A DNA stretch of 64,000 bases from positions 54,511,608-54,575,607 of the forward strand of contig CM068842.1 in the NCBI GenBank assembly GCA_028554795.2. The letters are read 5' to 3'. Positions within the stretch are counted from its first letter, which is position 1, and every line of letters starts with the position of its first letter. Both the position numbers and the translations under genes were made by a program. Below are positions 6,956 to 64,000 of the stretch, in pieces. The stretch comes from Sinohyriopsis cumingii (Eukaryota > Mollusca > Bivalvia > Unionida > Unionidae). A model generated the notes under the pieces. It did no database searches. It had not been told where the DNA came from and saw only the letters and a program-made list of their open reading frames with translations.

Positions 6956-6999
6956 CTCTTCCTTCTGGTCATCTTTGCTAGCCAAGGTTTCTATATGAT

Positions 7000-9226: not shown

Positions 9227-9227
<1 letters not shown>

Positions 9228-9275
<48 letters not shown>
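9228..9275. repeat. (TA)n microsatellite
   Basis: About 24 TA repeats inside D1. The paralogous position in D2 carries a separate (TA)n at 13159-13229, so the array or its seed probably predates the duplication. Confidence 0.95.

Positions 9276-9276
<1 letters not shown>

Positions 9277-13157: not shown

Positions 13158-13158
<1 letters not shown>

Positions 13159-13229
<71 letters not shown>
13159..13229. repeat. (TA)n microsatellite
   Basis: About 35 TA repeats within D2. They generate the spurious IYIYIY open frame at 13081-13299. Confidence 0.95.
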
Positions 13230-13232
<3 letters not shown>

Positions 13233-14135: not shown

Positions 14136-14227
14136 ATGGCTAAAGATGAAGTGGATACAGATCTACCCACCCATGATCAAGCCAAGGAGTTCTATGCTAA
14201 ATATGACCCCAAGGAAGTTCTGGGAAG
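14136..14227 (+). CDS. PHKG: Phosphorylase b kinase gamma catalytic subunit, canonical coding exon 1
   Basis: Encodes residues 1-30 plus two bases of codon 31. The peptide starts MAKDEVDTD and ends AKEFYAKYDPKEVLGR. Vertebrate PHKG starts the same way (a short acidic leader, then FY..Y.PKE.LGRG), which identifies the family. The last residues are the first strand of the kinase domain and the first glycine of the nucleotide-binding loop. The donor at 14228 (gtaggt) leaves phase 2. The acceptor of exon 2 at 46057 completes AG+A = Arg and continues GVSSVVRRC, exactly the family sequence. Start choice: this is the first Met of the family-like segment, in context gaaATGg. The known role of PHKG is the Ca2+/calmodulin-regulated kinase that phosphorylates and activates glycogen phosphorylase in the alpha-beta-gamma-delta complex. 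Confidence 0.93.
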
Positions 14228-20781: not shown

Positions 20782-20990
20782 TGGGAGCTTGGGTAGCGCA
20801 GTGGGTAGCATGCCGAATAGGGTTTGCATTTGAATTCTACCTTCAGATTTGCCTGTGTCTTCAGACAATCATGTATGTGGCTTTGGACAACACTTAACTC
20901 CATTTGTCTTAGCACAAAATAACCTATTTGTGATGCACTGCCGTACAGCACGTAACCAAGGTAAGCTAGTTGATTTTCATTTTGAAATCA
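20782..20990 (+). repeat. tRNA-headed SINE-like repeat, family C (unit A copy)
   Basis: 'gggtagcgcagtgggtagca' looks like a box A, followed by 'gtggctttggacaacactta' and 'actccatttgtctt'. The same element in the same place occurs in unit B (29922-30115). The insertion therefore predates the A/B duplication. Confidence 0.6.
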
Positions 20991-22329
20991 GATTATTTTT
21001 GTCTAGTCATATATACGAGATTGTGTTTCTGCAGGCTTCAGAACTGAAATCTAAACCACTCATTTTCCATTTGCATCAAATATTGGCTGTGTGGTGAATG
21101 ATAATTATAGCTGATTGAAATATCAGTTGTATTATGTAATTGGATATTTTTGGAGAGTCGTAGTTCACCATCAGCACTTGGTCACATACGAGGATGACCG
21201 TGCTACTTCGTCTCTTACTCAGTCCCTTACAACCTTACACATTTGGCTTTCATTTTTCTGAATCTCTTTAAAAAAATACAACTGAGAAAATCAATGCCCT
21301 AGACTCCAGCCAATGTTTGCTTCTATGACCTCCAGTTTTTTGGCCAATGTTTAACTTAATAATGTAAGAAACTGAATTAAACTAAAAGTTATTGGGTTCG
21401 ATTCTGCCTTACCTCACATCACAATCCATCTTTGAACTTTTTCTCCCCATAAAATTGTTTTGGTCCGAGTATCGTTCTCGTGATATGGATCGGTTCATTA
21501 TTTATTGTCTGTTCATTATATATTGACTCCAATTTTATTTCGCAATTCTGGTGCATCAGGTTGAAAAAGACCACATCGAATGTGGCTTGCATTTCTTGTA
21601 AAGGAGACAACAGTCGCTGATTAGTTTCGATGCAGACATCATAATTTTAGTTTCGATGCAGACATCATAATTTTACTTGGTCAGTAAAACTGTTTGATGT
21701 TAACAACTTTTTGAGGGTATTTTGTATGAATTACAAGTTTCTATTTTATAAAGCGTTATATAGAACATTTTTTGGGGTCAGCATTCTTTAGATGTATATG
21801 AAGTTTTATGATTTGTTGTGCCTTACAAGTCGACTTGTATAAAAGAGAACTCACTATAATGATGAATGTTGTTCAAACTCAGTGACTATTGGAATGATCT
21901 TGCGCATTTTTTCAATCCCAGAAAGACCACACTACGACGGAACGACTTAATTCACTTTTGGGATACATTGTTTAACATTTATATTATTTTAATTGCTCAT
22001 GAGTTTGTGTGGTTTTCAGGTTTGTTAGAGACACGTCATTCTCTGTCTACATAGAAAAGTAGTTCATTACCATATATTTTGAATTGTTTAGAAAATTTCC
22101 CATTGAATACCCTTCAGGAATAAAACTGAAAGAAAATTGTAGGAAGAGTTTAGGAATTGGAATATTTATTAGTTATTAAAATATTTTAGTATCTATCAAA
22201 ATTTTCCATGAATACCGTTCAGAAGAGATGAAATTAAGGTCACAAATGTAAGAAAAGTCATGGAATTTGAATACATATTAGGTTACAGTACTGTTTCTTT
22301 CAGGCATGTTTGATAATACGGTGAGGAAA

Positions 22330-22767
22330 AGGGTGACAATTGTCCTGTACTAAATTATTTTAATTTGGATCTGCCTAGACGGTTGATATTGCAGTGCTAA
22401 TTAAACTGATGGCTAACATAACAGAATACGCTATTGTTATAGCATGACCAAGCCAAATGAATTGACCGAGTATTCCAAAGGCCCAAGTTAGTATGTCAGG
22501 AGGTGTGATTTGATACAGCCCTTCTGTTCGTCCAGAACTGATTGAGGTGTGGCCTGTGCGTCAGCTGATCAACGTGAACTGTACTTATTGTAAGGTTAGT
22601 GGCACAAGGTACAGCTGTGTTTATCTAGCTGTTCGTCAGCTGGGTTGTCACTTTGTTTACATCCCCATTCGTGCCAAAACTATACATGTATTTTCCAGAT
22701 TTGCTTATTTCTGACCATAACGGGCAATTCCTCATTTTGTAAATACTCGTACAGATGAACAGAGACA
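22330..22767 (+). promoter_or_regulatory. Conserved region upstream of alternative exon A
   Basis: The region before the start codon is shared by the three units: 'ttggatctgcc', 'gaccgagtattccaa', 'ggtgtgatttgatacagcc', 'gtccagaactg', 'gaggtgtggc' and 'agatttgcttatttctgacc'. It is the best candidate for a duplicated promoter or leader. A conserved AG in a ttttccag context (22697-22698) could instead be a splice acceptor. Conservation may simply reflect the duplication. Confidence 0.4.
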
Positions 22768-22955
22768 ATGAAAGAATTGACGAGGCCTGGTTGGAGTATA
22801 AAAATGAACAATATTCTGATCAAAGGGTCCTTTGCTGACCTCCAGACTAGCGTTAAAAATAAAATATTGAAACAGCCTGATGTTCACTTGACAATAATAT
22901 TCGAGACAGAAGAAGGAATTACACCTGTATACATTCTGAAAGAAATCTGTGGCAT
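22768..22955 (+). CDS. PHKG: Candidate alternative first coding exon A of PHKG
   Basis: Encodes 62 codons plus two bases, starting MKELTRPGWSIKMNN and ending TPVYILKEICG. The donor GTAAGT begins at 22956 and leaves phase 2, the same as canonical exon 1. Joining to exon 2 gives AT+A = Ile and the sequence ICGIGVSSVVRRC, so the G-x-G of the glycine loop is rebuilt. An in-frame TGA lies upstream of the Met, within the region shared by the copies, which supports this start. Paralogous exons at 33705 and 41131 keep the frame; A and C share 43 of 62 residues by my count. The segment KGSFADLQTSVKNKILKQ has no family I recognise. It replaces the normal FY..Y.PKE leader. Function is unknown; a regulatory N-terminus or altered complex assembly is inference. 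Confidence 0.7.
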
Positions 22956-23004
22956 GTAAGTAACTATTCAGGGACGGTTGGTAGGTAACAATTTCAGTTT
23001 CTTG

Positions 23005-26000
23005 CCTTTTTTTCCTAATAGTTATTTACATGTATCTTTTATTAGCAGCGAGATAATGGGAAGAAAACCAAGAAAACTTTCTAGTAACCTTTTTCATTAA
23101 ATAAAAAAATACCTGCGTTATAAGAAACTAACTTGTATATAGCAAACTTTGAAATACAGATTTCGAGGTGTTGAAAAAGACAAAATTTATTGTAGTTAGA
23201 GGTTTTATAATGGATTAAAATGTATAAGATCAGATTTTGAAATATCTGTGACAAACCTGGTGTTAACATTTGTTTTCACTTGGTATTTAGATTTTGACTC
23301 CCCCCCCCCCGAAAAAACATTTATCTCATCCAAGTTTCAGGATAAGAATAATGGGCTTTTTTTGATTCAAATAACAAGGATACAGCCAACTTTTTTTTAT
23401 TGTTTCTGACAAGAACTTGATTCCTTCACATTCAAACGGATTGAAAGGAAAATAAGATGCTAATCATTTTATTATATAACGACAGACATTAAATCCTTAG
23501 CCATTTATAATATAACAGTGAAATTATTTTTTTCTCAATAAATAGACTGTTAAGTACTGTATTATGCATGTCAAAATTAAACATTAAAACATTTTACCCC
23601 TTATAACAACACTGTTCCCTTCCCCATCAAATAATCAACAATTAGTTTAATTCCCAAGAACTATCATGTTTTACTGTATTTTACAAAGTAGCATCACCAT
23701 TCGCAACATAACATCTTGCACGAGTAAACACCTTCCATTACACTGTACTTTGCATATGTACCTAAATTGCCAACATTAATGAAGCAAACCATGACAAAAT
23801 GTGTATCGATCCGCATAATTGCCACCCCACCCCCATCCCAAACTGATGAAAATCCAATACGTTAATTAGTAAACAGTGTTTAATGTCATATGAGTGGGTT
23901 CGAAAGGAAGAAAAGTGGGACATAATGTAAGATCTATTGAAAAGATGAATCGAACTAGATACATGTATTGTACCTAAATAATAGAGGTGCACACTATTTC
24001 CAATTCAGAATAGTATTCTTTTTCCGTGGTGCATACCACTGTACTTTTTCACTGTACAGGTGTTTTGTTAGGTTCCACCAGTATGGAATACACGGAAATT
24101 CCCAGGATATATTGTTTTAAATTTAATATGAACAGCATGTTTTTATTTTTATGAGAAAATAATTCACCAAATTATTATATTTTTTTCACGGAACAGTTGT
24201 ACTTGTAAAATAAATTTTGGATATTACAAATAAAGTTGTGATCCTTTTAGTCTCATGCGAATATGGTGGCCAGTTAATTGATTTGAAAAGGCATTTGTCT
24301 CAGTCGAATGGGATTCTTTCGAAAATGCTTCGAAACAATTTTAACTTTGGAGGTTCTACTTGTCTGTCGTTCAGAGTGTTTTGCAACACGTCGAAATGTA
24401 GTGTCGTGAACAATAGTCATCTACCTTAATTCTTTCCTTTGAGAGGGTACCTTCAAGGAGACCCATTAGCCCATGCCTATTTATTATTGGAATAGAACTT
24501 CTCTCCATTGTTTTCAGGAATGACATACTACTGCTGCTTCTGCTTTGGATTTTAGTCGTATGTCGCCATTAGCCATGCACGATTCGAAGTTGTTAATTTT
24601 CCTTCCTTTTAGAAGTTTATTATTTTTCGTGTACTATGAGCACTTGTATTTAACAAAAGCTTTGCCGAATCCATTGGGCTTCGTGTGATCCCAATTCGGA
24701 TGTCCTCAGCGTCGTGAATTTGTAAACCGAACCAGTCAGCATCCTTTCAGGGCCAATAAATTTGCCCCGAAAGAGGGCTTTCTTGGGCCAGAATGAAAGC
24801 CCTATTTGATAGGTGAGCGTGTGTTTTGCGTGGTTGGGTGGGAAGGGGTGGATGTGTGGGTGCTATACTATGTAAGTTAAAGGTTTTGATATCAATGTTA
24901 TTTGTTGGGGATGGCAATTTCGTTTCTGTATACTCGGGTTTTGGGCGTTTGTTTTATTTGTTTGAGTTGGCTTTTTCTGGTTTTAAAGTCTTTCTTTTCC
25001 TGCTCCTTTTTGTTTTTAGTACCACATAAGAAGTCGTTGTTTCTTCTATGTATGATCATCATTATTTCTGCTGGTCTTGCCTTGTTCCCACGTCCTGTTG
25101 TGGTGTTGCTTTCTTTTATTTCAGCTACGTGTTACTGGACTTTCCCTTGTTTTGAGAAAAAGAAAACTTTGAGAACAGGGTGTCGGCTTTAGTGTAAGCG
25201 CAATCGTTTTACTTTCTAACGCTACAGTTTTTAGATCATAACTAGTGCAACAATTTAACATGCATATATCAGATTCATTTATCATAAGGTAAGTGACCAT
25301 TTAATTTTCGGAAAGGGGTGTGGAGGCAGCTACATTCTCTTGACCTGAGATGTTTGACTTTCTTTTATCTCAATGCAGTTCATTTTTTTCTCTCAAATAA
25401 TATAACCGACATGCGGTCAGTGAAATCGATTGAAGGTGGCAACTGAACATGTGACAGTTGCACGGCAAGATCACGGAGTTAAGATTACAGACCTCTATTA
25501 CTTGTCGCATATCAGACTTGTAGCATGACGAAAGGGTTGTCACGAGTGTAAACATTGAGGGTGCTACCTTCACAATTTAAGGGATTATAGTCAAACATGG
25601 ACAGAATGTAGTAGAACTATACTTGGTACTACACAGTAAATTCTTGGATCGATTAAAAGGATTGTCGAAAACACAATACTGTCATTAAATACGAACTTGT
25701 CGCGCCAAGTTCTCTAGCAGAAAACTCGGGAGATATCACTTGGGAATTAAATCTAACTGTTGCAAAAGGAAAACACAATATACGTTTGGCTTGCACGAAA
25801 ATGAAAGCAGTATACTTACTTGTTAGTAAACACCCACGTAAACTACATTGTCGCCTCTTAACTTCACCTTGGGTAGTATTTAATTTACCCGTAGTAATTT
25901 TAAATTATTAAAATTTAAATAACTGTAAATTCACATAAAAAATGCATGCCATTTATGCATTTCTGAAAATTACAAAATATTTGAATTGACAATATTTTTT

Positions 26001-26080
26001 ATGTACTGCAAACTTTCTAACATTATCCTATAAAAAGATTTTTTTTTGTTGCGCTAAAACGACCCCTACACTGCATGAAA
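23005..26080. other. PHKG: Intronic stretch between units A and B
   Basis: The first 1 kb belongs to unit A and pairs with 33857-34740. After that I see no gene. There is a C-run at 23301-23310, a low-copy repeat X copy near 25370, and short unrecognisable open frames (24217-24429, 24826-25192) without motifs. The latter overlap each other in different frames and are probably chance. Confidence 0.55.
25370..25600. repeat. Low-copy repeat X, copy 2
   Basis: 'catgcggtcagtgaaatcga' corresponds to 'catgcggtccgtgaaaccta' at 38120, and 'gttgcacggcaagatca' to 'gttgtgcggtaagatca' at 4490. It lies between units A and B, while copy 3 lies just before unit C, so it may mark a common larger ancestral unit. 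Confidence 0.45.
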
Positions 26081-26132
26081 CAAATTTTTAGTTTGAAAAA
26101 AAAAATGTCGACTTACAAGCTAGTATATACGA
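25990..26132 (-). mobile_element. Terminal part of a second pogo-like element
   Basis: In reverse complement the stretch begins with TA, then tcgtatatactagcttgtaa and gtcgacat. This matches the left end of the element at 17731 (ccgtctatactcgcttataa, gtcgactt). Further in, 'agtgtaggggtcgttttagcg' matches 'aagtagggtcgtcctataagcg'. A TA follows at 26133-26134. I cannot find the opposite end, so this is a fragment or strongly diverged. Confidence 0.55.
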
Positions 26133-27735
26133 TAGTTGATCATAAATGAAAATAATGCCAAGGTTGACATTGGATATATTTACTATGACGACGGTCTTTG
26201 AAATTTGTGTTGTCATTGCTTCCATGAATGGTCATAGTGACATGGGGTTTACACCAAAGGACTTCTGATAATCTTTCCTTGGTCCTAGATGGAAAGGGTC
26301 CCAATTTTGCATCGAATATGACCACGAGAGCAACCAGTTTGAATATCTGTTAATACTGAAGACAAGCTTTTCAACACACAGCAGTTACACGGAAGAAATG
26401 GTCCTGTCTTGAATTCATAGATGTACTTTTTGCCAAGTAGAAGATCCATCCTTTCGATGGACTGTTGTTTTTTTAATGGCAAAATGTTTTTTAAAAAAGC
26501 AAATATTTTAGTATTTTAAATTTGCAACCACCTTAGAATTGTTGAAAATTCATCAGTAGTAAATGAAATTTCATTATTAACGCTGCATCTTATTTTGCAG
26601 TTTGTTGTACTTTAATTTTCTTTGGTCTGTCACACACACACACACACACACACAGAGAGTTTGGAAACAGTTATATATAAAGAAATCTGACAAGTAATAA
26701 TCCGAAATAAGGCTCCAAGGGTACCTTGACGCATCTAAATCCAGCACCACAAAGTAAACAGAGCTGACTAGTAACATGTATGTTTTCTAAAGATTGGGTT
26801 TGTCGATACTGAAAACAATAATGCAGAATTCATTGACGGCAAATGTCTACCAACTTTAGTCACCTTTATCAGGTGTCACTGTAAATAAATGTTTACATGT
26901 TTCCATGACAACAAAATAAAACTTCCAAGATAAGAATGTGAATGAAAATGTTTGAGATATGAAGCCCAGCCATTCTTGATGGCGAAAGTCAATAACTCAT
27001 AAAGAGGGATAGTTTTATCGTTTAAACTCTTCGATTATTTTGAGTGCATTGCTAAGAGATAAAAATATAGTCTGTGATTTATATTAATATGTAAGCAAAC
27101 CTTGACCATTGTACCGTTGGTCATTTATCAGTGTTGACCTTACATTGGTGGATTTTAATATTCATAGTTTACCCCAGAATTGCAAGATTCATCAACCATT
27201 TTTGTATTCTTACTTTAAAATGTGATAAATAGTGGCCATATCCAGGTTTCAGTATTACTTATAATACTTGTCCTTATTCTGGGTGAGATATGACTCAGCA
27301 CATTTCTTGTTGGGTCTCAGTAATATCATCGACTGAAAACGTGCCTTGGTGTTAGGTTCTTCACTTGCGCAAAAGAGACAAAAAAGACCTGGGGTTTTTT
27401 GCTTTCGTACATGTTATGCCAGATAGGATTAAATAAAATCGGTGTACCAGATAAGTGATTTTACTACAGCAACTTTTAAAGACTTAAAAGTTTTCTTCTT
27501 CCATTTTTGTCAGAATAGCGATCATACATCATCATCTTTTGGCTTCGTTGATGCTAGAGAAAGCATGTATAATTCCTACAAAGTCTTGACTGGAATTTCG
27601 TTACAGTGTAGTTGAGTGTAGTATTTATTTGGGACTAGGTCGTGTCTCAGACCAGATGAGTTGTAGCAGGAAAGACTGGTATATTTCACTATTGTTGCTC
27701 ATTAGAGTATCTTTGTCATGATTGTGGTGGTGGTG

Positions 27736-27753
27736 TGTGTGTGTGTGTGTGTC

Positions 27754-27791
<38 letters not shown>
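27736..27791. repeat. (GT)n/(GA)n compound microsatellite
   Basis: About 8 GT repeats followed by about 14 GA repeats. They create the spurious SLSLSLSHTDTHTHTH open frame on the minus strand. Confidence 0.9.
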
Positions 27792-28450
27792 CACAATAAC
27801 ATGAGTAGGGAAGGGTAGTTGCATCTACTTGGAATTTATTGATTGAAATTAGTAATATAAGAGGATTTGACGCTAATGTCAACACAAACAAAAGAAACTG
27901 CTTAGTTGTCCAAGTTGTCTAGGCCAGGTTTTAATAATTGTCACTGATTTTAGAATCACGGAGAAATCATAAAGGAAGATGCGCGATGATGGCGTGGTTT
28001 CAACACCATGCTTGCCCAGTTTGGGTTATTTTGTGTCTAGTGGATGGAAGCGGAAATGTTGATGCTAAATTCATCATGATAGTGAATAAGATAGTGAATA
28101 AATGTATGTATTATTAGGAGAGCAAACATATATTGTTGTGGGTGGCAGGAAATTTGTTTATTTAATATTTATGACTAGATGCGGACTAGCATTTTCCTTG
28201 AAAAGAGAACATTGAGAAGAAATACTAATTGACTGGTTTTTAGGTTACATTTTAAGTTACCCCCCCCCCATTTAAAAAAAAACAACAGTATTTATACTAA
28301 ATATACTTAGATGAAAACTTTACTGTGTAGTATTATCAGGGACAACTGTTAACATAGCTCACCGTCCCCTCGGGTGATGTTAACAGTCTGTAGAGATTAA
28401 AATCAGTCTGCTGATGAAGTCCTTAGTACGAAGACGAAAGCTTCAGATTA

Positions 28451-28454
<4 letters not shown>

Positions 28455-28536
<82 letters not shown>
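28455..28536. repeat. (TA)n microsatellite
   Basis: About 41 TA repeats, the longest such array in the window. No equivalent is seen at the matching place in unit A. Confidence 0.95.
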
Positions 28537-28538
<2 letters not shown>

Positions 28539-28769
28539 AGTAATGAGATCTCTGCATATTAATCATAATGAGATAATCTTGGATCCCATTGTTTTTCTTA
28601 TCACTCTGGAAGTCACACTTTTTTCTGGTGTTGATCAAACTTGGAACACTAGATAACATCATCAGGCTGTCAGATAAGTTCATTAACGCACAAAAGTCAA
28701 ATCTACGTTGGGGTTTTCACCGAAAGACTTAATGTGATCTTTAGTTGGTGCTAAATTAAAATGATTTGT

Positions 28770-28970
28770 TTGGATTTAACCCCATTTCTTAGCGCATGAT
28801 ACATGGGATGGAGGAAGACCCAGGGGAAATCCCGATATGAATCACATTAATCTACCTGTAAGCTTTCTCACATGTCCATCTTGACCGATCTCGAGAGTCG
28901 AACTCGAGGTGAGATGGCAGTGATCAGTAAAATGGAGTGCTTTAGACCACTCAGCCACCCAGGGACTCGA
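28770..28970 (-). repeat. SINE family A, degenerate
   Basis: Reverse family A order: 'ggatttaaccccatttctta', 'ggaggaagacccagggga', 'aagctttctcacatgtccat', 'ggtgagatggcagtgatca', 'tttagaccactcagccac'. Many substitutions and a few gaps. Confidence 0.8.
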
Positions 28971-29222
28971 GTGAAAAGGTGCTGATCAGACATGCAAAAT
29001 TTGGCCACCAAAATGACCATCTTGAAAATCTTGATATTGCAACGTGTTCTAGATAGATTATCATGTTGATAAAGGATTTCATGAAAAGATTTCCAATGAT
29101 ATCAGCTTGACCAAATATGAAGATAGTGCTGATTTCACATCCAGTATAACCACCATGGTTACCAACGTGAAAACCTTGTTTTTAATATTCTTCAATGAAA
29201 AGTTATATCAACATTCATTTTC

Positions 29223-29467
29223 GGGGCCCCTGGTGGCTGAGTAGTCGAAAGTGCTTGCCTTTACCGATCACAGCCGTCTCAGCTCAGTCGGCGTGGGTTA
29301 GAGTCTCGGGCTTGGCCGTTGTGGGCATGTGAAAAGGCTGCCGATAGTTTCCGTGGGTTGGCGGTTCTTACTGGGATTTTGCAGGGTTCTTCCTCCACCG
29401 GTTATACTGGACACGATGTACAGCCTATGTTGCGCTGAGAAATGCCGTTAAACCCAATACAACAACA
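29223..29467 (+). repeat. SINE family A, full length
   Basis: Begins GGGGCCCCTGGTGGCTGAG and ends with a CAACAAC tail. Flanking 'acattcattttc' and 'acatagcattttc' are an imperfect target duplication. Confidence 0.88.
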
Positions 29468-29921
29468 TAGCATTTTCACAAGAGAACATCTTTATATCTA
29501 TTTGGTTTAACGTACTAAATAAATTTGGTGATGATCTAACTTCTAGAATGGCCAACATTTTTGAAAATCTCGTTATTGCTTCTTTTCCTTGATAGATGGT
29601 CTTATTGTCATGGGGTTTTGGTGTTGTTGATGAAGTACATCAAGTCAGATATTGGACTGTCCCAAAGAATGCCATTTATGTAGAGAATTTTGACCATATA
29701 TTTGAATGACTTAAAGTTTTTACTGTCATCCTTTACAGGATATTTTTAAATATCTTTTTTTAATACCTTTTAAAGAATTCTACAAAATATGAAGGCAATG
29801 CGACATACTGGGTTGTCCTACAGTATCTTTACCTATATAAACAAAATTAATAATATATTTAGATTAAATGTTATTCTTTAACTGTTATTACCAAAGTTAT
29901 TTTTTTAATATATTTTCGTTG

Positions 29922-30115
29922 GAGCGGGGATAGCGCAGTGGCTAACAGGCCGAATTCTTGACCGAAAGGGGGTGCATTTAAATCGTTCAATGTGCCTGCG
30001 TCTGTATGGTGGTTTGGCTTTGGGCAACACTTAACTCCATTTGTCTCGGTACCCGCTTGTGTTGTAGTGCTATGCAGCACGTAACCATGCTAAGCTAGTT
30101 GATTTTCATTTTGAA
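29922..30115 (+). repeat. tRNA-headed SINE-like repeat, family C (unit B copy)
   Basis: 'ggggatagcgcagtggctaa' and 'tttggctttgggcaacactt' repeat the unit A element at 20782-20990, with the same downstream text ('ctagttgattttcattttga'). Confidence 0.6.
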
Positions 30116-30302
30116 ATCAGATTATTTTTGTCTATTCATTTATACGAGATTGTGTTTCTGCAGGTTTTAGAACTGAAATCTAAACCACTCATTGCCATTT
30201 GCATCGAATATTAATTACAACTGAGTGAAATATTAGTTGTAATAAGTAATTAGATACTTTGGAGAGTCATTGTTCAGCTCCAGGTCACATACCAGGATGA
30301 CA

Positions 30303-30305
<3 letters not shown>

Positions 30306-30356
<51 letters not shown>
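30306..30356. repeat. (TA)n microsatellite
   Basis: About 25 TA repeats within unit B, just after the 'cacataccaggatgacagtg' block shared with units A and C. Confidence 0.95.
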
Positions 30357-30359
<3 letters not shown>

Positions 30360-30696
30360 CTGGTTTGAGTCCACCTGCTTATTAAGCAACTAATGAAATC
30401 GGCTCAGACTGAGTGACTTGCTGACTGCACGTATTCATTTATCAAATCCCATGAAGACCACACACATACATGAAACATTGGAGTTCTCTGTATAATATTT
30501 ACATTACTTTTCATGCCTCTGATTGTGCGTATTTTAAATTTTCAGGTTTGTTAAAGAGAACTCATATATTTGCTTGCATAGATCAGTTATCAATATATGT
30601 TAGTATTTTAGGAAATTTTAGTGTTTTAGGACATATTCCACGAATACCGTTCAGAAAAGAAGAAATGATGGACAAATAAACGTAAGACAAGGTGTA

Positions 30697-32108
<1,412 letters not shown>

Positions 32109-33639
32109 GACATTTTTTTTTAGAAAATAGATTGACCTTGACTGTTAGTTTATAAACGCCAGGTGTTGATCTAAATCCTGACCTTGTTTCAGAATGTGTA
32201 GCAACCTTCGTAAACAGGTTCTATTTTATTTTAAAATGATTGGTTGTTTACAATGTTATGATGGGACTTGTAAGGGTTTTCGCTAGTGTCACACTGGGTA
32301 AACGTGAGCTGTAAGAAGTACTTGCTTCTGTAAACTTTTAGAAGATGATGACGTGACCCTTGTTTACGTTTTAGAAAGCCCATGATTTGGAGAATTAATC
32401 AGTAGAAGTTGGGCTGTTAAATTGTTAGTTGTATGTTGTATTATTTGGAGTTATTTCAGATTACTTGGTTTGGAGTTATTTCAAATTACTTGGATTCAAA
32501 AGGATTAATTCTATTATTTTTCTGGAAAATGCGTGTGCTCATGTAATATTGTGGAACAAGGACAGTTGTTTTTATCAAAATTTATTCAGCTATCATAAAC
32601 CGGAGTGATAATTCTTATTTCTACAAGGAACTGTAGACTTTAACACTACAGATTGTAGCATACGTCATCGTCTTCCATCTTGGATTCTTCGTCGGGATTC
32701 GAACGTGAAATCAGTAGAACATTTTGTTATTAGGACTAAAATTTTATTTTCGGATCATTTTTGGATTTGATTTAATAAAATCGTAAGTTATTTTTTTCTT
32801 CATTTTTACAGAATTTTTCTTGGGAAATAAATTGTCCTTTTTTTTAAAGCTTGTTGTTTTCAATCTTTCTTGTGTTACTGTTTATTCTAGCGTAAACAAG
32901 TGACATAAGATTTCTCATTTGTGATTTTTGTTAAGGGATCCTCCTTTTTATCCTGCTTTTGCCATATGTTTGATGCTATGTTGTGTTTTTACGTTCCCTG
33001 TGTATTTTTAGGACTGGTGCGATTAATCAAATCGATTCTTGGTTGTCTAATCGCTCTGTGTGTCTGTATAATAAAACTTCCTATTTTTTTCGTCATCTTT
33101 CCTGTCCTTTTTTTTTTTTTAGAGCTGACTCATTTTTAAAATAGTTTCACTTTGGATCTGCCAAGATGTTTGATAAGCAGTGTTAATTATTTAAGTTGAT
33201 TACGTAACATCAGACACCATTTTTAGAAACCGATTACGCACTGTAAAGTGACCCAGTATTCCAAGCGTCCAAGTAATTAGTGTCCGAAGGCGTGATTTGA
33301 TACAGCCATACTATTCGTCCAGAACTTGTGGAGGTGTGGCCTCTTTGCCCTCCGATCATTTTGAACTGTACAATGTAAGATTAGGGGTTGGTGTTACATG
33401 CACGACTGTGCGAAAACCACTTAAATCTTAATTGGCTAAGGTTAGGAGTTAGACGTATATGGCCTAACACGTCTATAATGTAAGATCAGTTAGTGGCACA
33501 CAGTAAAGTTTTGATTTTTAGCTCTCTGTCAGCAGGGTTTACATGTCATCATACGTTTTTACATCCTATTTGTGCCTGAACTATACATGTATTTGCAGAA
33601 TTGCTTATTTCTGACCATAATGGGCAAGTCTCCATGTTA

Positions 33640-33704
33640 TGACTACTTGTACATTTTAGCATAGACAATGGCAGAATTTTAGTTGCCTGGTTGGAGCGTA
33701 AAAA
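33640..33704 (+). other. Damaged leader of alternative exon B
   Basis: The segment matching the start of exons A and C is present ('agacaatggcagaatt', 'gcctggttggagcgtaaaa'). But its ATG opens a frame that stops after four codons, and one extra A in 'aaaaaatgaac' relative to A shifts the frame before the conserved part. The upstream 11-12 residues of A and C are therefore lost here. Confidence 0.65.
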
Positions 33705-33856
33705 ATGAACGAAATGCTTGACAAAGGGTCCTTTGCTGATCTTCAGACCAGTATTGAAAGAAAAATTCTAAAACAGTCAAGTGATGAATTCACATTAACG
33801 TTCGAGACAGAAAAAGGAGCTACATCTGTATATATTTTGAAAGAGATCCGTGGCAT
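33705..33856 (+). CDS. PHKG: Candidate alternative first coding exon B of PHKG (shortened start)
   Basis: Encodes 50 codons plus two bases: MNEMLDKGSFADLQTS at the start and GATSVYILKEIRG at the end. The donor GTAAGT begins at 33857 and leaves phase 2, so joining to exon 2 at 46057 gives IRGIGVSSVV. The core is free of indels relative to exons A and C, although the surrounding duplication has many, which argues for coding constraint. The start used here is the first Met in the conserved frame, because the leader is frameshifted. A Cys-to-Arg change precedes the loop glycine. It could be a functional shorter isoform or an early pseudo-exon. Confidence 0.58.
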
Positions 33857-34734
33857 GTAAGTATTTGTTTCTTCCCGTCGCACCAACGTGATTTACATAT
33901 ACAATTTTTTAAAAATAGAGATAATGGGAATAAAACCAGTACAAATTCTGCTATAAACTGAACCATTCAATTAACTTACGAAAGTTGTTGATGGAAAACT
34001 TGGACATATTCAAAGGTTTGCAACACAAAAAAAACCCCACAAAAAACCACACGAAGATTCCATAGCTCGGTGTTTTGTAATGGATTTACAAGTACAAAAT
34101 CAACCTCGAATTTTCAGTAATATACGTTTTATACGAATCAGTGACAAACCTATTGTTGCGTTTTCAGTTCGTTATTTAGTTTCTGTAAATTCTCCCCCTC
34201 CCCCACCATGAATGAATGAAACAAAGGCTGTTATCGGAATTGCAGGATGAGAACTGACTCCTGACTACTCAATGGTACAGTAATCAGGACACATTGAAAA
34301 ATGTAATATTTTTCAGTAAATAACATGTTACGTTCAAGTATTACATAAAAAATTACCAGTACAAAAACACTTCATCCACCCTCCAATGAACTCTATTTTT
34401 TGAATCACAAGAATGAGTAAAATTTCGTTTACAACATAAGTAAAGTTAACACCTGGCATTAGATTACCGTGCATATGAACCTAAATTTCCAAACTTAAGT
34501 GAAAGAAGGAATGACACAAAAATAAAAATAAATACCGAGCAGTATAATTGTAAAGCTTCTCCCAGAAACCTAATGAAAACAGATACGTTAATTAGTAATT
34601 AGTGTTTAACGCCTTAATAGTTTTTCTGAAAAGAACAAAGGTGGGACACGAAGTGGCTATATAAGATGCACATGGTACATGTACAATACCTAAATAGCAT
34701 GAAACCGTATATTTTAACTGTTGTTAATATCAAT

Positions 34735-34800
34735 GCATAAGCTGTATGGCTCGCGGGCTGCATCCGGCCCGTGACCTGGCTTTATCCATTAAATTACATC
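34735..34800. mobile_element. hAT-like terminal remnant
   Basis: 'ggctcgcgggctgcatccgg' followed by 'cccgtgacctgg' resembles the GC-rich palindromic block found near the ends of many animal hAT transposons. No transposase or second end is visible nearby. Low certainty. Confidence 0.3.
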
Positions 34801-35437
34801 AGAGGACGTGGCTTTAAAATTCACTTATCCGGCTTGCCCGCTGGAGGAAGGTGCCCATGCATGCTCTCAGTACTGATATCACCAGCCAAATAGAACGTTC
34901 GCCTAATTTTGTTGGCAGTAGTGTTCATTTCATCCTCTTAAATATGACCAGATTTCACCGATTGATTTTTACGAGGCAACTAACGTTTGTTCACTTCCTA
35001 ATAAAATAGCGTCTTCTGATATCGTTGTGCCTTAGTCACACCGCAGCTTAACAGTTGTTATTATTATTATTAGTTGTAGTATTCCACTTTTAATGGCATA
35101 TCGATGTTGAAATCAAACTGAGAAAGCTTTCGTCTCTTTAGGGATTTCTGTTCGAATCGTCACCAGTTTATTTCAAAGGTCATTACTACAAAAATGGGTG
35201 TAGTGTATTTGCCGAACATTCACAGGTGCTGCTCGATAGAACATCGGTTTTCTGTGAAATTGTGTCAGAGTAGCCTTCAGAGCGACATTTCTTTCCACAA
35301 GATTAATACCGTCATAAGGGTCAATTCCTTATTAGTAATGCTGGCTTCGTGCCTGTTTACTCAAGTCTAGCCTTTCACTATTCTGCCGAATGGCCCTGAC
35401 TGACCAAAAACAAACAAGGGGACATCGTCCATGTTTG

Positions 35438-35457
35438 TGTGTGTGTGTGTGTGTGTG
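35438..35457. repeat. (GT)n microsatellite
   Basis: About 10 GT repeats. Nothing else recognisable is seen in the surrounding 34.8-36.2 kb stretch. Confidence 0.85.
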
Positions 35458-36259
35458 GAAACGAGGCGCTTTACACAGAGAACGGTTACGTGCTTCGAGA
35501 ATTTCACGGGTGTTCGACCCGGAGGCTCGGGTCCCTTGAGAGCCCTATAAATTAACTGATAATATTTTATCACACCTCTGCTACTTTACACCTAAAAAGA
35601 ATTTATAGTAAAAGTGATCATCTAGAATGTTTTTCTTGCACCATAGACTTCCTAAATAGATTTCATTTCAATACTGGAGGTGGCAGATAGCATTATCTGA
35701 GAGTCATGTCTTCTAAGTTTTTGTGACTAATTTTTGTATCTCTAAATGTGAATATTCATGCAGCAGTTAAAATCCAGCATGGCATAAATATTTGTAAGCA
35801 TCGGCGTATGCGTGCATTAATGTTTTCAGAAACATCCGTTATCATAATTAAAAAGACATTAATATGTAGTAAATGCATATATTGACATATATTTTGTCTC
35901 AAGTTTTAACGCATAAAAAATCCATCAGTAGTCTCAGAATTCATATAAACGATAAAATGATCCATGTTATCTTTGTTACAAATGTCAACGAAATCATGTG
36001 AAGATTGTTGAAACTTAATAATAATAATAATGTCTTTAATGTTTGAGAATGACACGGTTAGGAATTTTTTTTTAGCCCCATGTGGAGATCAATTATCTAC
36101 ATATGTACCTGTAGGCAGATATATAAAATACAGTTGGAACAAACATTCAAAAAATATATAATGGATTCATGTACGTACGAGCAGCTAAGTATTGATTCAG
36201 CAATCGGAGCATTTTGTTACTTACGCGCATGAATGAAAGCTTTGTCATTCACACCTACA

Positions 36260-36260
<1 letters not shown>

Positions 36261-36330
<70 letters not shown>
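36261..36330. repeat. (TA)n microsatellite
   Basis: About 35 TA repeats directly beside the end of the minus-strand CR1-like LINE. Confidence 0.95.
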
Positions 36331-36333
<3 letters not shown>

Positions 36334-36334
36334 T

Positions 36335-37560
36335 TCCAAATGATTGGACTGGATAAAGTCGAATTATTTTGATACAGTTCAGTTTGGGGCTTAGGAAGAA
36401 GAAAGTTGTTAGATGACGTGGAGCGTAACATTGATAGACTAGAAACTGTATTGATATTATTTGTCCTTTTACGGAGCAGATTATTGACATAGTTGGAAAC
36501 TTTATACATAAATTTAGCCTTTCTTAAAAATATATAGTCATGATCTTCAAATCATTCATACATTCGTGAAATTCCGTTGTCATGGATGATTCAGATTACA
36601 TTCGTGGAACTCCGTTGTCATGGAGTTGTCATGGATAATTCAGATGGCTCGTTTTGAAACTTGTAACAGATTTGTTTTAGAAGCATTACCCCTTGTACTG
36701 TTGCAGTAGTCCAGATGAGGCTGAATATAACTTTTGTGAACCATTATCCTGTAGTTCAAATTAGAAATTCTTTAAATTTATTTTAGTAATCCGATTTTCT
36801 GAGCCATTTTTGGGGGTAACCTTATTGATATGTTTTGACCATAACTTAATGTGATCAGTTTAAACTCCCAAAAGTTATCTTGCGTTACATTTTTCAGGTC
36901 GACTTTATTAAAATCGATGTGGAGAATATTATATTTAATTCTGTCAAGTTTTTGTTGAGTGGTTAACAGCGTCATTTTGCTTTTGTCAAAATTACCGACC
37001 CTTCCTTTCTGTCTGCACCATTTAGAGTTTTACAGCAGCATTACGTAAGTTTCTTTCGATAGTAGCTTTAGACGAATTAATATATAAGGTTATGTTATCA
37101 AGATAAAGATCTGTTTCAGTATTTACTGTATGGAAATACAGATCATTTATAAACATAATACATAGTCGTGACCCTAGATTTGATCCGAGAGGTACTCAAC
37201 TTGTCACAAGCTTTTTGTCTGCATGACGCAGCTTATGTCAGCTTTTTTTTTTTACTTCCTTTTAAATACGATTTAAACGTTTTTGACAGTGTATTGTGAA
37301 TATAAAAGATTAACTCGTGTATAAGATAAAATTTTCATTAACAAACGTTTCGTTTTAACATGTTCTGTACAATAGCAATACCTTAATCGGGTACTGCATC
37401 CATTGGTTCATACGGTTTATCTTGACTGGAATTTTGTTATATGGGAGACTTATTATCTGATCCACCAATTTTGATCCAAGTAAATGAAATCTTTAATGAA
37501 CTTGTGAAAACAGTCATTCGTTTCGTATGATCGTCTTTCTTTTGGTGAAAGCCCACTGTT
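36335..37560 (-). mobile_element. CR1-like LINE fragment (reverse transcriptase C-terminal half)
   Basis: On the minus strand, broken frames read GSNLGSRLCIMFINDLYFHT (the GxPQGSxLGPxLFxxFINDL motif), LYLDNITLYINSS (in place of the catalytic YADD/YVDD), and the thumb region MTLLTTQQKLDRIKYNILHI with FNKVDLKNVTQDNFWEFK. The end has LSPKLNCIKIIRL. The order and spacing fit CR1-group LINEs. Catalytic Asp residues are changed and there are many stops, so it is dead. The exact 5' limit is uncertain. Confidence 0.7.
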
Positions 37561-37999
37561 TCAATCAGGATCGCCAACCTCTGAAGGTGGCGTGTCCACT
37601 TTTCAGAGTGGCTATTACGAATTTGTACAAGTACAAAGTAATACTTGCCACGACTGTTGAGTTCGTATTGGAACTAATAGATATATAACGGTAAAGAGAA
37701 CAGTTATGGACTAAATTACACAGCCAAGATAAGGTCAGAACAGGTGTCCTTTGAGTGATAGGGATTTTAATTTTGATGACAGGGTGTTTATTTAATAGTT
37801 ACCTGGTCTATCATCCTTTCGTGAGATAGCAAAAGTTATGATAGCTATCCCTAAACTAGTTGGAAAATTATCTTCAGACTTTACACCCACGTACATCCAT
37901 CACATGGTCTAGTTGGTCTTAAATGAGACTGGTACCCTATAAGTGTCAGTGTTTAATGTCATCTGGTTCAAAGACCAAGAATTTATCCTCATCGTTTTA

Positions 38000-38290
38000 T
38001 AAAATTCTGAAATCTTCGATCGTCGTATAGTCTTCATAAATCTCGGCCGACTCGGTTTCCTCAGTTTCACTCTCATATGCGGGTGTTTACCTAGATACAG
38101 CATGTAATCTGTAAGTGATCATGCGGTCCGTGAAACCTATTATCAGCTACAAATGAACACGTTTCATTTGTGCTGCAAAATAACCAGCGTCTGTAATTTG
38201 GCACTGAGCAAGTATTAAACTCGGGGCCTTTATCAAAATGATTGTCAACGTGAAAACAAATTGTCTGAGTTAGCTCTGACAGTTCCTGCC
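38000..38290. repeat. Low-copy repeat X, copy 3
   Basis: Shares ordered blocks with 4290-4570 and 25370-25600 (see copy 1). Minus-strand frames here (37909-38103, 38091-38294) contain LGKHPHMRVKLRKPS, which recalls LNKHPHLTVRPRKGS in copy 1. That could be a remnant of a shared coding segment. Confidence 0.45.
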
Positions 38291-40152
38291 CCATTTTTTT
38301 TTATTTTTTTATATCTTAACACTTAGGAGTATGGGCTGCATGATCACTTTAGGAAAGATGTAGTGACGTCATCGCGTTACACTCTGGTATTCGCCGTGGG
38401 TGAGTACACATGACCACGACGTTTGGAAAGTGTTAAAAGGACGAATTGACAGAGTCATCAATATAACATCGTTACAATTCGATTTTGCTATCAACGTCAT
38501 TACTATGATCGTCATAACCATAATAAATATGTCAGGGACTAACCATTTACTTTTCCGAGGGCTTTATATGATCCTCAAATAGCTTGAGAAAAGGTACTCT
38601 CGCTCTGATATGGGGAAAAAAAATCTGTCATGGTCTTTTTTATATGTCGAGATGAAAGAAAAACAATATCTTCTCTGATCATTTAATAGTCGGTCCCTTA
38701 CTCTACCCAGAGTCAAAATTGAGTGTACACGTATTCCTTTGTGGAGGTTAATAATATATCGAAATTAAATAAAAACACTATAAATGGCATTCTTTTAAAC
38801 GCACCAGTTTGGCTGATGATTTAGAAAGGATTATATTAAGATATGTCAGTTTCATTTGTAAGCTATCTGGCGATTTGAAATCTGTTGGCTGGCTTCAGTG
38901 GTTAAGTGCTGCGGCAGGAGTTGAAGAGATTCACTTTCATTCCTTAAATACAGCTCGCATGGGATAATAAATCTCGAGTTGAACTGGCAGGTGGCCACAC
39001 GATTTCAGTGCCAATATCCGAATAATCGTCGGAAAATTTATTTAATCCATATTTTCATAATGACTACTTCGACGACATCGTGCAAATCGTCCATTCACAT
39101 GACTTACGCGCGCGTGGGTAAGATCTTCCTTTTCCATACATTTTTTTTTTTTTACAACTTTCATCAGAAATATATTTAATATTAAAAACTGAACACATTC
39201 CGATCGTCTGTAATTTTATTATGGACATGCCCCTATTGAATAAGATTGATGAACCAATGTGTGTATTGTAAGTGCATATACTATAGCGAGACCGACCACA
39301 TTGTTATCTCTGGCGGAGACCCGGATGTAAATTTGTGACGTCATACCCAGATTCGCAGTACCCTATCAGCTCCAAATTACATACCAACATGACGGTGCTG
39401 CTTCCCCGCTTACTCATAGCCCATGCACCAGAGTTACAATTCTGACTTTCATTGCCCGAAATCTCCAATGAAACAAGCTTGATAAAATCCATGAGCACAA
39501 CATTTGACCCCAGCCTTTATTTTGCAGATATGAGACTTGAAAATATTAAGAAGCTACGTTAATTATACATTTCTGCTTTATTTCGTATCGCAAACCAACT
39601 TTTTCTCCCCATAAAATACGTTTAATACTATTGAACAGTTGGTTGATCGTTAAATGTCATTAAATAACAATGTAATTCTCTTGATTATTTAAGTATAGCG
39701 ACTTGGATTTTTTTATTTCAAAATTGTACTGCATCAGTCGGAAGAAGACATTCAGTGTCTTAGATGTGGCGTATCAATGTGAGTGAGTCGACAAATAGTG
39801 GCCGATTGCTTTATGAAAAAAACTACCTATGGCAGATGTCGCAAGCTTACATCTAAAATAAAAGATTATGATGCCGGGATGTAGGGTAGGGGAGGGTATT
39901 TTATATGAATTACAAGTTTTTATTTTTAAAGTGTTGCATTTCTTTTTTTCGGTCAGTATTCTTTGGCTGTATATAAATTTTTATGATGTTGTACCTTACG
40001 AGTCTGCTTATATAAAATAGAACTAAATGATGAATGCTGCGCAGACTGGGTGACTTGCTTTCTGCACTTGTTCATTCATCACACACAACGATGAAACAAC
40101 TTAATTCTCCGTTTTGGGATACATTGTTTAACATTAATGTTATTTTACATGC

Positions 40153-40557
40153 TACCGCTCCAGTGGCCTAGTGGTTAGAGCGTCCGCTCCGGATGCGGGA
40201 GATCGTGAATTCGAACCCGGCCGAGTCATGCCAAAGACTTACATTAATAGGTTAGTGTTAGGACTGGTTGGCCTGGTGTCAGGATAATGTGACTGGGTGG
40301 GACATCGTGCTACATGTCTGCGGCATGATGCCCCAGTGCTAGACATCACTTAAAAGTGCCACACTGCCGGTATCGTAGCGATTAGACCAGCAAGTTGTTC
40401 TCCACCCCTTTTGGTTTTTGGTTGTTTGACTAACGGCGCCAGTCAAACAAAAAAAAAAAAAAAGTAAAGGTGGAAAAGAACTTGCTGGTCTACGTAGCGA
40501 TATGACTGGAAAATTGTTAAAGCTACGTTAAAAATCTAAATCACACACACACACACA
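40153..40557 (+). repeat. SINE family B, split by the foldback MITE
   Basis: The tRNA-like head (box A 'tggcctagtggttagagcg') and body run to 40382. They resume at 40493 with 'cgtagcgatatgactgg' and end in a (CA)n tail. Part of the body between the head and 'ttagtgttagga' is deleted. Confidence 0.88.
40383..40492. mobile_element. Foldback MITE (110 bp), second copy, exact 9-bp target duplication
   Basis: Arms 'tagaccagcaagttgttctc' and '...gaacttgctggtcta' are inverted. The centre holds GACTAACGGC / GCGCCAGTC-like stems with an A-rich and T-rich pair. CGTAGCGAT occurs at 40374-40382 and 40493-40501. In other SINE B copies this site is single ('catcgtagcgatatgactg'), so the insertion is proven by the empty-site sequence. 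Confidence 0.92.
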
Positions 40558-40849
40558 CGTTTCTGTTTTTGTAAATATTACCTTTTCAGGTTTGTTAGAG
40601 ACGCCTCATTACGTATCTGGTTACATAGATCAGGTGTTAATTATTAAGGATTTTTAATTGTTTATGAAATTTCTCAGGAATACCAGTTAGGGAGGGAAAA
40701 AAACGAAAGCCAGAAAACTATGAAAAGTCAAGTACAGCTGAGATTCTTTCATGCATATATAATGATGTTTCATACGCGGGGTTAATTATATAGATGGATT
40801 ACTTAACATTATTACACTATTTTTAGAACATTACGTAGCATAATAGATT

Positions 40850-41130
40850 TGACCCAGTATTCGAAGTGCCAGTCTATATGGTTTAGAGGTGTGATGAAAT
40901 CCAGCCATCCTATTGGTCCAGAACTGGTGGAGGCGTGGCTCATGTAATCTGATCGGCGTAAACTGTACTATTACTTGTTAGGTTATTGACACTTAAAACC
41001 ATTTAGTTTGTATGTATGTCAGCGTGTTAACATCCTGTTTCATGGCTTCATTTTGTGGCAAAACTAGACATGCATTTTCAGATTTGCTTATTTCTGAAGG
41101 GAATAACCCATTGCTGTAAATAGAGAGACA
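40850..41130 (+). promoter_or_regulatory. Conserved region upstream of alternative exon C
   Basis: Contains 'gacccagtattcgaa', 'ctattggtccagaactgg' (with an inverted CCAAT-like ATTGG, changed to ATTCG or GTTCG in B and A) and 'ggaggcgtggc', then a 'cattttcag' acceptor-like motif (AG at 41080-41081) before 'atttgcttatttctga'. It could be a promoter with a leader or an intron end. Both readings are inference. Confidence 0.4.
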
Positions 41131-41318
41131 ATGGTGAAATTGTTGAGGCCTTGTTGGAGTGTAAAAATAAACAAAATTCTGGACAAAGGGTCATTTGCAG
41201 ACCTCCATACCAAAGTTAAAAAGAAAATGCTTAAACAGCCTGAGGTTGAATTCACAATAAAGTTCGAGACGGAAGAAGGAGCTACACTTGTTTATATTCT
41301 GAATGAAATCTGTGGCAT
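41131..41318 (+). CDS. PHKG: Candidate alternative first coding exon C of PHKG
   Basis: Encodes 62 codons plus two bases: it begins MVKLLRPCWSVKINKILD and ends ATLVYILNEICG. Donor GTAAGT at 41319, phase 2, identical to canonical exon 1 and to A and B. Joining to exon 2 yields ICGIGVSSVVRRC. In-frame TGA and TAA lie within 40 bases upstream of the Met, and the context gacaATGg is favourable. It is the copy nearest to exon 2 (4.7 kb) and looks intact. Conserved blocks in all three copies are KGSFADL, KQ, FETE.G and VYIL.EI.G; I know no named domain with this pattern. The VYIL.EI.G part resembles the first strand of a kinase domain. Confidence 0.72.
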
Positions 41319-41864
41319 GTAAGTAAATATACTGGGTCGGCTGGTAGGTAGGGAACAGTTTTAGTTTCTCAGGTACCTAAGTTACAATTTGATTAGTAAA
41401 TTTAAATTTAAATAACAATGAAATTGCCGAAGTTAAATTTTTCCGAATGTGGACAATATGATTATAACTTATCTGTGGAAGTTATGAAGATTATTAACGT
41501 AGATTTTATTGATGTTATCAGGAATTCTTACAAATAATATATGACAGGTAATGCAGTAATAAACTGATTTAAAAATATCACCACTTTATTTAAAATATAA
41601 TATGTTCCAATTGCAAACTAATTGTTTATCGTTGGATAAATATTTCAAATACAAAAGAAGGAACAAATGCAACACTTTATTTACATGTTGTCAGAACAGA
41701 TATAATTGGAAAGATAAAAACTTAATTATTTTACTGGGATAGACAGAAAAAAGAACAAAGTCATAGGGCAGCACCCACTTAAGTTGTTTTAGTTAAACTT
41801 TTATTTGGTTGAGATAATTATTGGAATTGGTGTAAGATGCAGTTTTCATTAATGCAGGTCTCTT

Positions 41865-46056: not shown

Positions 46057-46232
46057 AGGTGTAAGCAGTGTTGTGAGACGATGTACAGAGAAAGAAACGG
46101 GCAAGGAATATGCAGTAAAGATTATTGACATTAGTGGGGAGAAACAGGAGAATTATTTAGCAGAACAGACAAAGAGGGACACATTCAGAGAAATGAACAT
46201 TCTGCGCATGTGTAGTGGTCACCCATATATTA
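46057..46232 (+). CDS. PHKG: PHKG coding exon 2 (glycine loop, VAIK lysine, alpha-C helix)
   Basis: Follows the acceptor 'tttgtttcag'. The first base completes codon 31. The peptide reads GVSSVVRRCTEKETGKEYAV, then KIIDISGEK, later RDTFREMNILRMCSGHPYI. Lys52 of AVKI is the ATP-anchoring lysine and Glu76 of FREMN is the likely salt-bridge glutamate, by numbering of the joined product. Between them lies a charged stretch (QENYLAEQTKRD) somewhat different from vertebrate GGGSFSPEE..E. The donor gtaagt at 46233 leaves one base (phase 1). This is the common acceptor exon for canonical exon 1 and for candidate exons A, B and C. The 97-residue open frame at 46034-46327 covers it and runs into both introns. 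Confidence 0.95.
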
Positions 46233-49440: not shown

Positions 49441-49680
49441 CCTACCAAACCTTACTAGTGCCTACATAATGGACTATAAAACAGAACTATAATGGACTAT
49501 AAAACATGACTTTAATGGAACCATTCACAGTACTCATGTTTATTAAGTTGGAGAAGAAAAGAAGGAAAGTTTATTTTGGATAGAGAGAAGAAAGAAAAAC
49601 ATGTAAGAGGTGTATTATACTTGCATTTTCAAAATCAGTGAATATGAAATTTAATGACTACCCTTTGACTTCTTTTACAG

Positions 49681-49735
49681 TTGGTTTCCATGACTCATTT
49701 GAAACTCCCACCTTCATCTTCTTGGTGTTTGAATT
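49681..49735 (+). CDS. PHKG: PHKG coding exon 3 (hinge region)
   Basis: The acceptor 'cttcttttacag' ends at 49680. With the base left from exon 2 it gives I-GFHDSFETPTFIFLVFE and two bases of Leu (phase 2, donor gtaagt at 49736). This covers strands beta-4 and beta-5 leading to the hinge; the vertebrate counterpart is IQLKDTYETNTFFFLVFDL. Only 55 nt long. Confidence 0.95.
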
Positions 49736-63005: not shown

Positions 63006-63226
63006 TGACATTACATCTCACCATGTTTTTATGAGACTAGCACCATATCTCACAATTCTTATATATGTGATATAACATCTCACCATGCTTATGTAGGTGA
63101 GACCATAACTTTTGGAAAATCTTATTACAGTTATATATATGATTAGGTGGCTTACTGATGTGTGTGTGTGTTGGACTGCAGTTTGAATTTTTATTCTTAA
63201 TTAGAATTTAACCATGTTAATTGCAG

Positions 63227-63299
63227 GGTCATAATGAAGCAGCTCTTTGATGTTGTAGAATTTATCCACAGCAAGAAGATTGTTCACAGAGATCTTAAG
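63227..63299 (+). CDS. PHKG: PHKG coding exon 5 (catalytic loop)
   Basis: The acceptor 'ttaattgcag' ends at 63226. The first base completes Arg130. The peptide is VIMKQLFDVVEFIHSKKIVH then RDLK, ending in frame (phase 0, donor gtaaga at 63300). HRDLK (residues 150-154) is the kinase catalytic loop with Asp152 as the proton-accepting residue; the family reads IVHRDLKPEN, so PEN should open the next exon outside this window. The reading frame of the five exons joined has no stop (462 nt). Confidence 0.95.
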
Positions 63300-64000
63300 G
63301 TAAGAGCCAAGTTCACAAAGTTAAACCCAGAAAGTAGAGATCATTAAACAATGCTTATTGCAACAACAAAAGAATTGGTGAATTAATTTGAATAATTTCT
63401 GCATTTTGCTTGGTAGGTAAAGATTAAAATTATTTTTACATCTGTAAAGTCATGGCCATAAAGTACTGTAATCATTAGTAGAGAACATTTGGATCTCACA
63501 TGCTTAAGGTCATTAATAGTATGCATCCATGACTCATTTGGCTGTACATTTGTATAGGAAGAGATTTCAAGGTAAAACTATGTGGGGGAATTCTCAATTT
63601 TGTTTTCTCAAAGAACTGAAATAGTCTTTGAAAAGTGCTAGTTTTTAAAGCAGTTTAAATACATGTGTGTGTATGTTTCAGACCTTGTTTTTCAGAGGCT
63701 TGTATTTAGGAGATGAGTCTTGTACTTGAAGATAAGAAGACATTAAGCTAAATTAACTGTTACAAATTGAGTTTTATGGGCATTGGGTTAGCATAACTAT
63801 TGAAATTGATGCATGTGACAGTAAAACACAATTAACATCATCAAATCCACCAACGTAAGAAGTGATAGTAAGAACATCAATATAAAACTTGATGATAATG
63901 AAGATTTGGATTTAAAAAAGTAATGTCTTGCATTTGATGTGATACAAATAGAAGGTTTTGCTGTCAAGCTACAGTAGCCATATTCTCAGAGAAATGCTAG
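63300..64000 (+). other. PHKG: PHKG intron 5, incomplete
   Basis: Begins gtaaga after exon 5 and runs off the window. No exon starting with the expected PEN.LL continuation and no repeat family listed above is seen in these 700 bp. Confidence 0.8.

Follow-up and report, generated by a model that had tools for sequence, protein, structure and literature searches.

The window analyzed here, a 64,000-nucleotide stretch of the Sinohyriopsis cumingii genome (GCA_028554795.2, contig CM068842.1, positions 54,511,608 to 54,575,607), contains the 5′ portion of PHKG, the gene for the catalytic subunit of phosphorylase kinase, and three paralogous open segments, designated A, B, and C, that are candidates for alternative first exons of this gene (Table 1). 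PHKG lies on the plus strand, with additional exons at roughly 49.6 and 63.2 kb as well as past the window end. The peptide encoded by exons 1 and 2 matches five distinct PDB sequences (at E values up to 1e-10), all of them phosphorylase kinase, with E values of 1.3e-22 to 9.3e-19 (2y7j, 1.3e-22; 8jfk, 1.8e-20; 1phk, 6.3e-20). The gene carries the PHKG kinase N-lobe with its GRGVSSVVRRC loop, and the catalytic motifs downstream are intact: HRDLK, DFGF, and GTPGYLAPE appear in this order, the latter two beyond the window, as read from separate open frames rather than from one assembled coding sequence. Searches of the genome (2.9 Gb, 1138 contigs) returned one match for exon 1 and likewise one for exon 2, establishing a single host gene. 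All three segments are situated between these two exons, at the coordinates proposed in an earlier reading made from the DNA letters alone (hereafter the sequence-only reading).

Table 1. Exons of PHKG, candidate alternative first exons, and invariant runs in the window
Feature	Position	Strand	Remarks
PHKG canonical first coding exon (MAKDEVDTDLPTHDQAKEFYAKYDPKEVLG-)	14136..14227	+	Phase 2, donor GTAGGT; single genomic place
Invariant 14-base run TTGCTTATTTCTGA, 5′ of the open frame	22701..22714 (A), 33601-33614 (B), 41084-41097 (C)	+	Three-way alignment
Candidate alternative first exon A, MKELTRPGWSIKMNNILIKGSFADLQ...VYILKEICG-	22768..22955	+	Phase 2, 188 nt, inner ATG 22804
Invariant 14-base run GTGGCAT then GTAAGTA, exon end and donor	22949..22962 (A), 33850-33863 (B), 41312-41325 (C)	+	Three-way alignment
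Candidate alternative first exon B, MNEMLDKGSFADLQ...VYILKEIRG-	33705..33856	+	Phase 2, 152 nt, upstream leader broken
Candidate alternative first exon C, MVKLLRPCWSVKINKILDKGSFADLH...VYILNEICG-	41131..41318	+	Phase 2, 188 nt, weak PB1-like match
PHKG common exon 2 (GVSSVVRRCTEKETGKEYAVKIIDIS...MCSGHPYI)	46057..46231	+	Acceptor TTTGTTTCAG, donor GTAAGT
Downstream PHKG exon within open frame (...FHDSFETPTFIFLVFEL)	49584..49735	+	Frame limits, not exon ends
Downstream PHKG exon within open frame (...SKKIVHRDLK)	63201..63347	+	Frame limits, not exon ends

Predicted junctions with exon 2

Each of the three segments ends in CAT followed by a GTAAGTA donor and leaves a remainder of 2, the same phase as exon 1. 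Phase and donors are as described in the sequence-only reading, but exon 1 itself has GTAGGT rather than GTAAGT. Joined in frame to exon 2, the segments give EICGIGVSSVV (A and C) or EIRGIGVSSVV (B), as that reading had predicted, restoring the G-x-G of the nucleotide loop; the corresponding join of exon 1 gives EVLGRGVSSVV. Two features of variable first exons are present at the locus: compatible donors, with phase 2, GTAAGT, and a frame open over the junction in all three cases, and tandem homologous exons upstream of common exons, the segments being paralogs with 76-82% DNA identity. An in-frame TAA directly follows each segment (GGC ATG TAA), and exon 1 similarly continues into TAG; the TAA is a by-product, because a phase-2 GTAAGT donor reads as a stop.

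In B, a stop together with an insertion of 1 nt (MAEF*LPGWSVK) disrupts the 12 upstream codons present in A and C, and translation of B could therefore start only at the inner ATG at 33705, which is preceded by a four-codon upstream open reading frame (ORF; 33668-33682). C has ATA where A and B have the inner ATG.

Fit to the kinase fold

The last eight residues of each segment were compared with the corresponding end of exon 1, YDPKEVLG, and with control sites, namely phase-2 GT sites with eight open codons on both strands of the window (four exons masked) and of six other loci. A scores 19, which none of the 5,682 controls reaches; B scores 18, with two of 5,682 controls reaching 16; and C scores 14, a value reached by four of the 5,682. 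Among the control sites with GTRAG, 0/166 reach 14. Against a Pfam kinase consensus, A scores 13, and 8/5,682 controls do as well. With the Pfam Pkinase profile, the canonical join scores 38.3 bits, the joins of A, B, and C score 32.8, 31.9, and 32.8 bits, and exon 2 alone scores 29.9 bits; five control junctions, built from the longest among 11 non-focal frames, score 27.9, 30.3, 28.3, 27.9, and 27.9 bits, leaving a margin of 1.6-2.5 bits over the best control. The alternative exon would cover the profile from positions 2-4 onward to 9. The segments would not follow the arrangement of protein kinase A (PKA), in which the exon supplies only a tail before an invariant kinase core.

The segments bear, at most, a hint of a PB1 domain. 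C alone matches PB1 (PF00564), at 17.6 bits (E 0.0039), below the Pfam cut-off of 23.6; neither A nor B matches PF00564, and a hand-made majority sequence scores 16.8 bits. A three-row profile retrieved no PB1 chain from the PDB, giving chance-level matches alone (best E 0.44), and a PDB search with A plus its junction found no relatives. With respect to a possible origin from another PB1 gene, PF00564 identifies six places in the same genome, none of which is A, B, or C.

Conservation and coding signal

Consistent with the claim of the sequence-only reading that the core frame is kept free of indels amid indel-rich flanks, a 150-nt core (50 codons) contains no indels and no stops in any of the three copies. 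Gaps per 100 aligned bases in 11 hand-chosen flanking blocks amount to 3.3 (A-B), 4.2 (A-C), and 3.8 (B-C), and the true rate is probably higher, because these blocks were picked for still aligning. From the flank gap rate, approximately 8.5 indels would be expected in the core over the three-copy tree (P of none ~2e-4). In a simple neutral simulation, the core stayed free of stops in 19.6% of runs.

The two 14-base runs of Table 1 are the longest invariant runs of the three-way alignment. Invariant columns number 11-16 per 20-column step across 22791-22969 and 0-2 directly afterwards; immediately past the donor run, the count falls from 15/20 to 0-2/20. Pairwise similarity of A and C continues to 23002, and the edge at the donor therefore belongs to the three-way comparison alone. 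The upstream run, TTGCTTATTTCTGA, is preceded in all three copies by CAG and two bases, and may act as a 3′ splice site or as an element of a promoter or leader.

Variable columns of the core fall on codon positions 1, 2, and 3 in the numbers 14, 8, and 24 (24/46 at third positions; chi-square p 0.014); between A and C, the corresponding numbers over 66 codons are 9, 8, and 19. No like third-position excess appears in the listed jointly open frames of other homologous blocks of the window, except in frames inside the segments themselves. Nei-Gojobori ratios of nonsynonymous to synonymous change (dN/dS) for the core are 0.40 (A-B), 0.65 (A-C), and 0.38 (B-C); in frame +2, the ratio exceeds 1 in all three pairs. 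Codon-based maximum likelihood estimates of this ratio (omega) for the three copies, under three frequency models, are 0.45, 0.43, and 0.55 (likelihood ratio tests against omega 1, p 0.027, 0.020, and 0.081). The dN/dS comparison proposed in the sequence-only reading thus comes out modestly in its favor for the three copies together, but not for A and C alone, which are compatible with neutrality. These data suggest moderate evidence of coding for A, B, and C.

Duplication history and copy number

A, B, and C lie within an old tandem duplication of PHKG intron 1, with patches at 16.3-23.9 kb corresponding to patches at 26.5-34.6 kb and part recurring at 39.9-41.4 kb. The 44-residue core of A and a 401-base DNA stretch surrounding A, used as genome queries, retrieved three matches apiece, namely A, B, and C; such searches could overlook more diverged copies. 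No fourth copy above chance was found inside the window. A transposon or repeat family was rejected as the source of the segments on the basis of these three genomic matches by either search. Origin by copying of exon 1 was likewise rejected: exon 1 has no DNA similarity to the segments, and a loose tblastn search with the exon 1 join matched, above chance, only itself and exon 2.

Other repeats are present in and around the gene. The best-kept patch of the intron duplication (20928-21064 and 30057-30193, 91% identical) shows greater similarity between copies than the candidate exons do. A second old tandem duplication is found directly upstream of exon 1 (4660-9633 and 7572-13552), with 67-75% identity in most blocks. 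A dispersed repeat with a tRNA-like start (GTGGCCTAGTGGTTAGAGC), probably a short interspersed element, occurs at 3687, 6654, 10321, 20441, and 40154. Reverse transcriptase-like open frames, judged by eye to resemble pieces of a long interspersed element, are located in a PHKG intron (50934-51938, plus strand) and upstream of the gene (1859-2998, minus strand).

Interpretation and alternative explanations

We propose, with a probability of roughly 60%, that PHKG possesses an old tandem array of alternative first coding exons, namely A, B, and C. Old segmental duplications of intron 1 would have copied the segments together with the DNA around them. Each would replace exon 1, either from its own promoter or behind a noncoding leader exon; translation would begin at an ATG inside the segment (22768 or 22804 in A, 33705 in B, and 41131 in C), and the phase-2 GTAAGT donor would be spliced to exon 2, which all forms would share. 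The resulting protein would retain the kinase core of PHKG, but its N-terminal tail, strand β1, and first ATP-loop glycine would be exchanged, the canonical YDPKEVLG-R-G becoming YILKEICG-I-G with approximately 45-60 residues added in front. Promoters, transcription, splicing to exon 2, and an active kinase are all steps that we infer from the DNA. Such an arrangement would probably serve to anchor or regulate the catalytic subunit, via its N-terminus, in a tissue- or stage-specific manner.

The exchangeable N-termini of the sequence-only reading are borne out on their genomic side, that is, in phase, donor, frame, conservation edge, β1-like end, and single host gene; the exchange itself stays conditional. 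The "up to four kinases" of that reading may be fewer, given that in B the residue preceding the first glycine is Arg and the upstream leader is broken.

Several observations weigh against an array of working exons. Selection is modest, with omega near 1 (p up to 0.081); the ratio of nonsynonymous to synonymous differences has a probability of 0.059 in neutral simulation; and for A and C alone, omega over 62 codons is 0.73, indistinguishable from 1. Frame +1 also gives low ratios for A-B (0.35) and B-C (0.50), but not for A-C (>1). Changes between A and C in the first 12 codons number 5, 2, and 1 by codon position, the reverse of a coding pattern. Overall DNA identity of the core (76-82%) is not above that of the kept flanking blocks (78-80% ungapped). 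The best control junction in the Pkinase comparison falls just 1.6 bits under B. The residue preceding the first glycine would be Cys in A and C and Arg in B, in contrast to the Leu of canonical PHKG. Finally, the leader of B is broken, and the short upstream ORF at 33668 makes B the weakest copy for translation.

Several of these points would also be expected if the segments were relics, that is, once-working alternative exons, or duplicates of a working copy, some or all of them now decaying, with a frame that survives mainly by history and with perhaps one copy still in use. The A-C omega of 0.65-0.73, the broken leader of B, and the equal identity of core and flanks are all consistent with decay. 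However, three cores without an indel or stop, where some 8.5 indels are expected, and a donor invariant in all three copies argue against it, as does the fact that B, the most diverged copy, has the lowest ratios (0.38-0.40). We regard relics as unlikely.

That the segments are not joined to PHKG at all appears quite improbable. They could be small single-exon genes of 51-63 residues ending in GM*, or the first exon of another, nested gene, and each ORF is in fact closed by its own TAA. However, a phase-2 GTAAGT always gives a stop, the invariant bases go beyond the TAA through GTA, and the resemblance of their last residues to those of exon 1 would have arisen by chance; additionally, a list of long frames on the plus strand from C to exon 2, the material surveyed for a nested gene, includes no compatible gene. 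Similarly improbable is a role as poison cassette exons, in which the CAG before TTGCTTATTTCTGA would be a 3′ splice site and inclusion after exon 1 would switch PHKG off by mRNA decay: an in-frame TGA does follow a few codons on (AGA TTT GCT TAT TTC TGA in A and C, AGA ATT GCT TAT TTC TGA in B), with the invariant run ending exactly at this TGA in all three copies, but the polypyrimidine tract upstream of the CAG looks weak on inspection by eye, and this role leaves unexplained why the frame downstream is open and free of gaps and has a β1-like end.

Returning to an array of alternative first exons, a more elaborate form of it is possible, though tentative. Here the N-lobe would be modular, the three first exons bringing a folded, perhaps PB1-like module fused directly to the exchanged β1 and half the ATP loop. 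The resulting kinases, carrying Cys or Arg rather than Leu at the position preceding the first glycine, might differ in ATP handling, redox response, or docking.

If the exons are used, duplicated first exons extending into the catalytic fold would have given a metabolic kinase new front ends, and exon choice could exchange strand β1 and the first glycine in the N-lobe of a kinase, a swap permitted by a phase-2 intron located at that glycine of the loop. The locus would then offer a ready way to ask which residues ahead of the ATP loop determine the activity of phosphorylase kinase and the assembly of its holoenzyme.

Comparison with known systems

Literature searches, limited to open-access papers and hence a weak negative, turned up no report of an array of first exons in PHKG. 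Within the same gene family, the Drosophila phosphorylase kinase gamma gene has two mutually exclusive internal exons that differ in length and sequence (PMC3228551). Those annotated alternative exons are internal and mutually unlike, whereas the three candidates here are terminal and related.

The overall architecture is itself known. In UGT1, related tandem first exons are joined to common exons, with a promoter of its own before each variable exon (PMC1885805, PMC3325998). The UGT1, GCNT2, and protocadherin clusters resemble the PHKG locus in that tandem related first exons are spliced to shared downstream exons. However, those clusters are vertebrate and their expression has been demonstrated, whereas the present case comprises three copies in a protein-kinase gene of an invertebrate-like genome and is known from DNA alone.

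Among kinases, the closest parallel is PKA. Alternative 5′ first exons of PRKACA and PRKACB give the catalytic subunit different N-termini (PMC6143667, PMC5526564). Exon 1-2 of C-beta-2 encodes 62 residues (PMC6143667), close in size to segments A, B, and C. Active PKA variants are all invariant over the core of exons 2-10, residues 16-350 (PMC6143667), and the ATP loop is therefore not exchanged in PKA. At the PHKG locus, in contrast, β1 and the first loop glycine would be exchanged along with the tail. Set beside UGT1, the protocadherins, and the PKA catalytic subunit, it is this exchangeable β1 and first loop glycine that would be the unusual part of the PHKG array.

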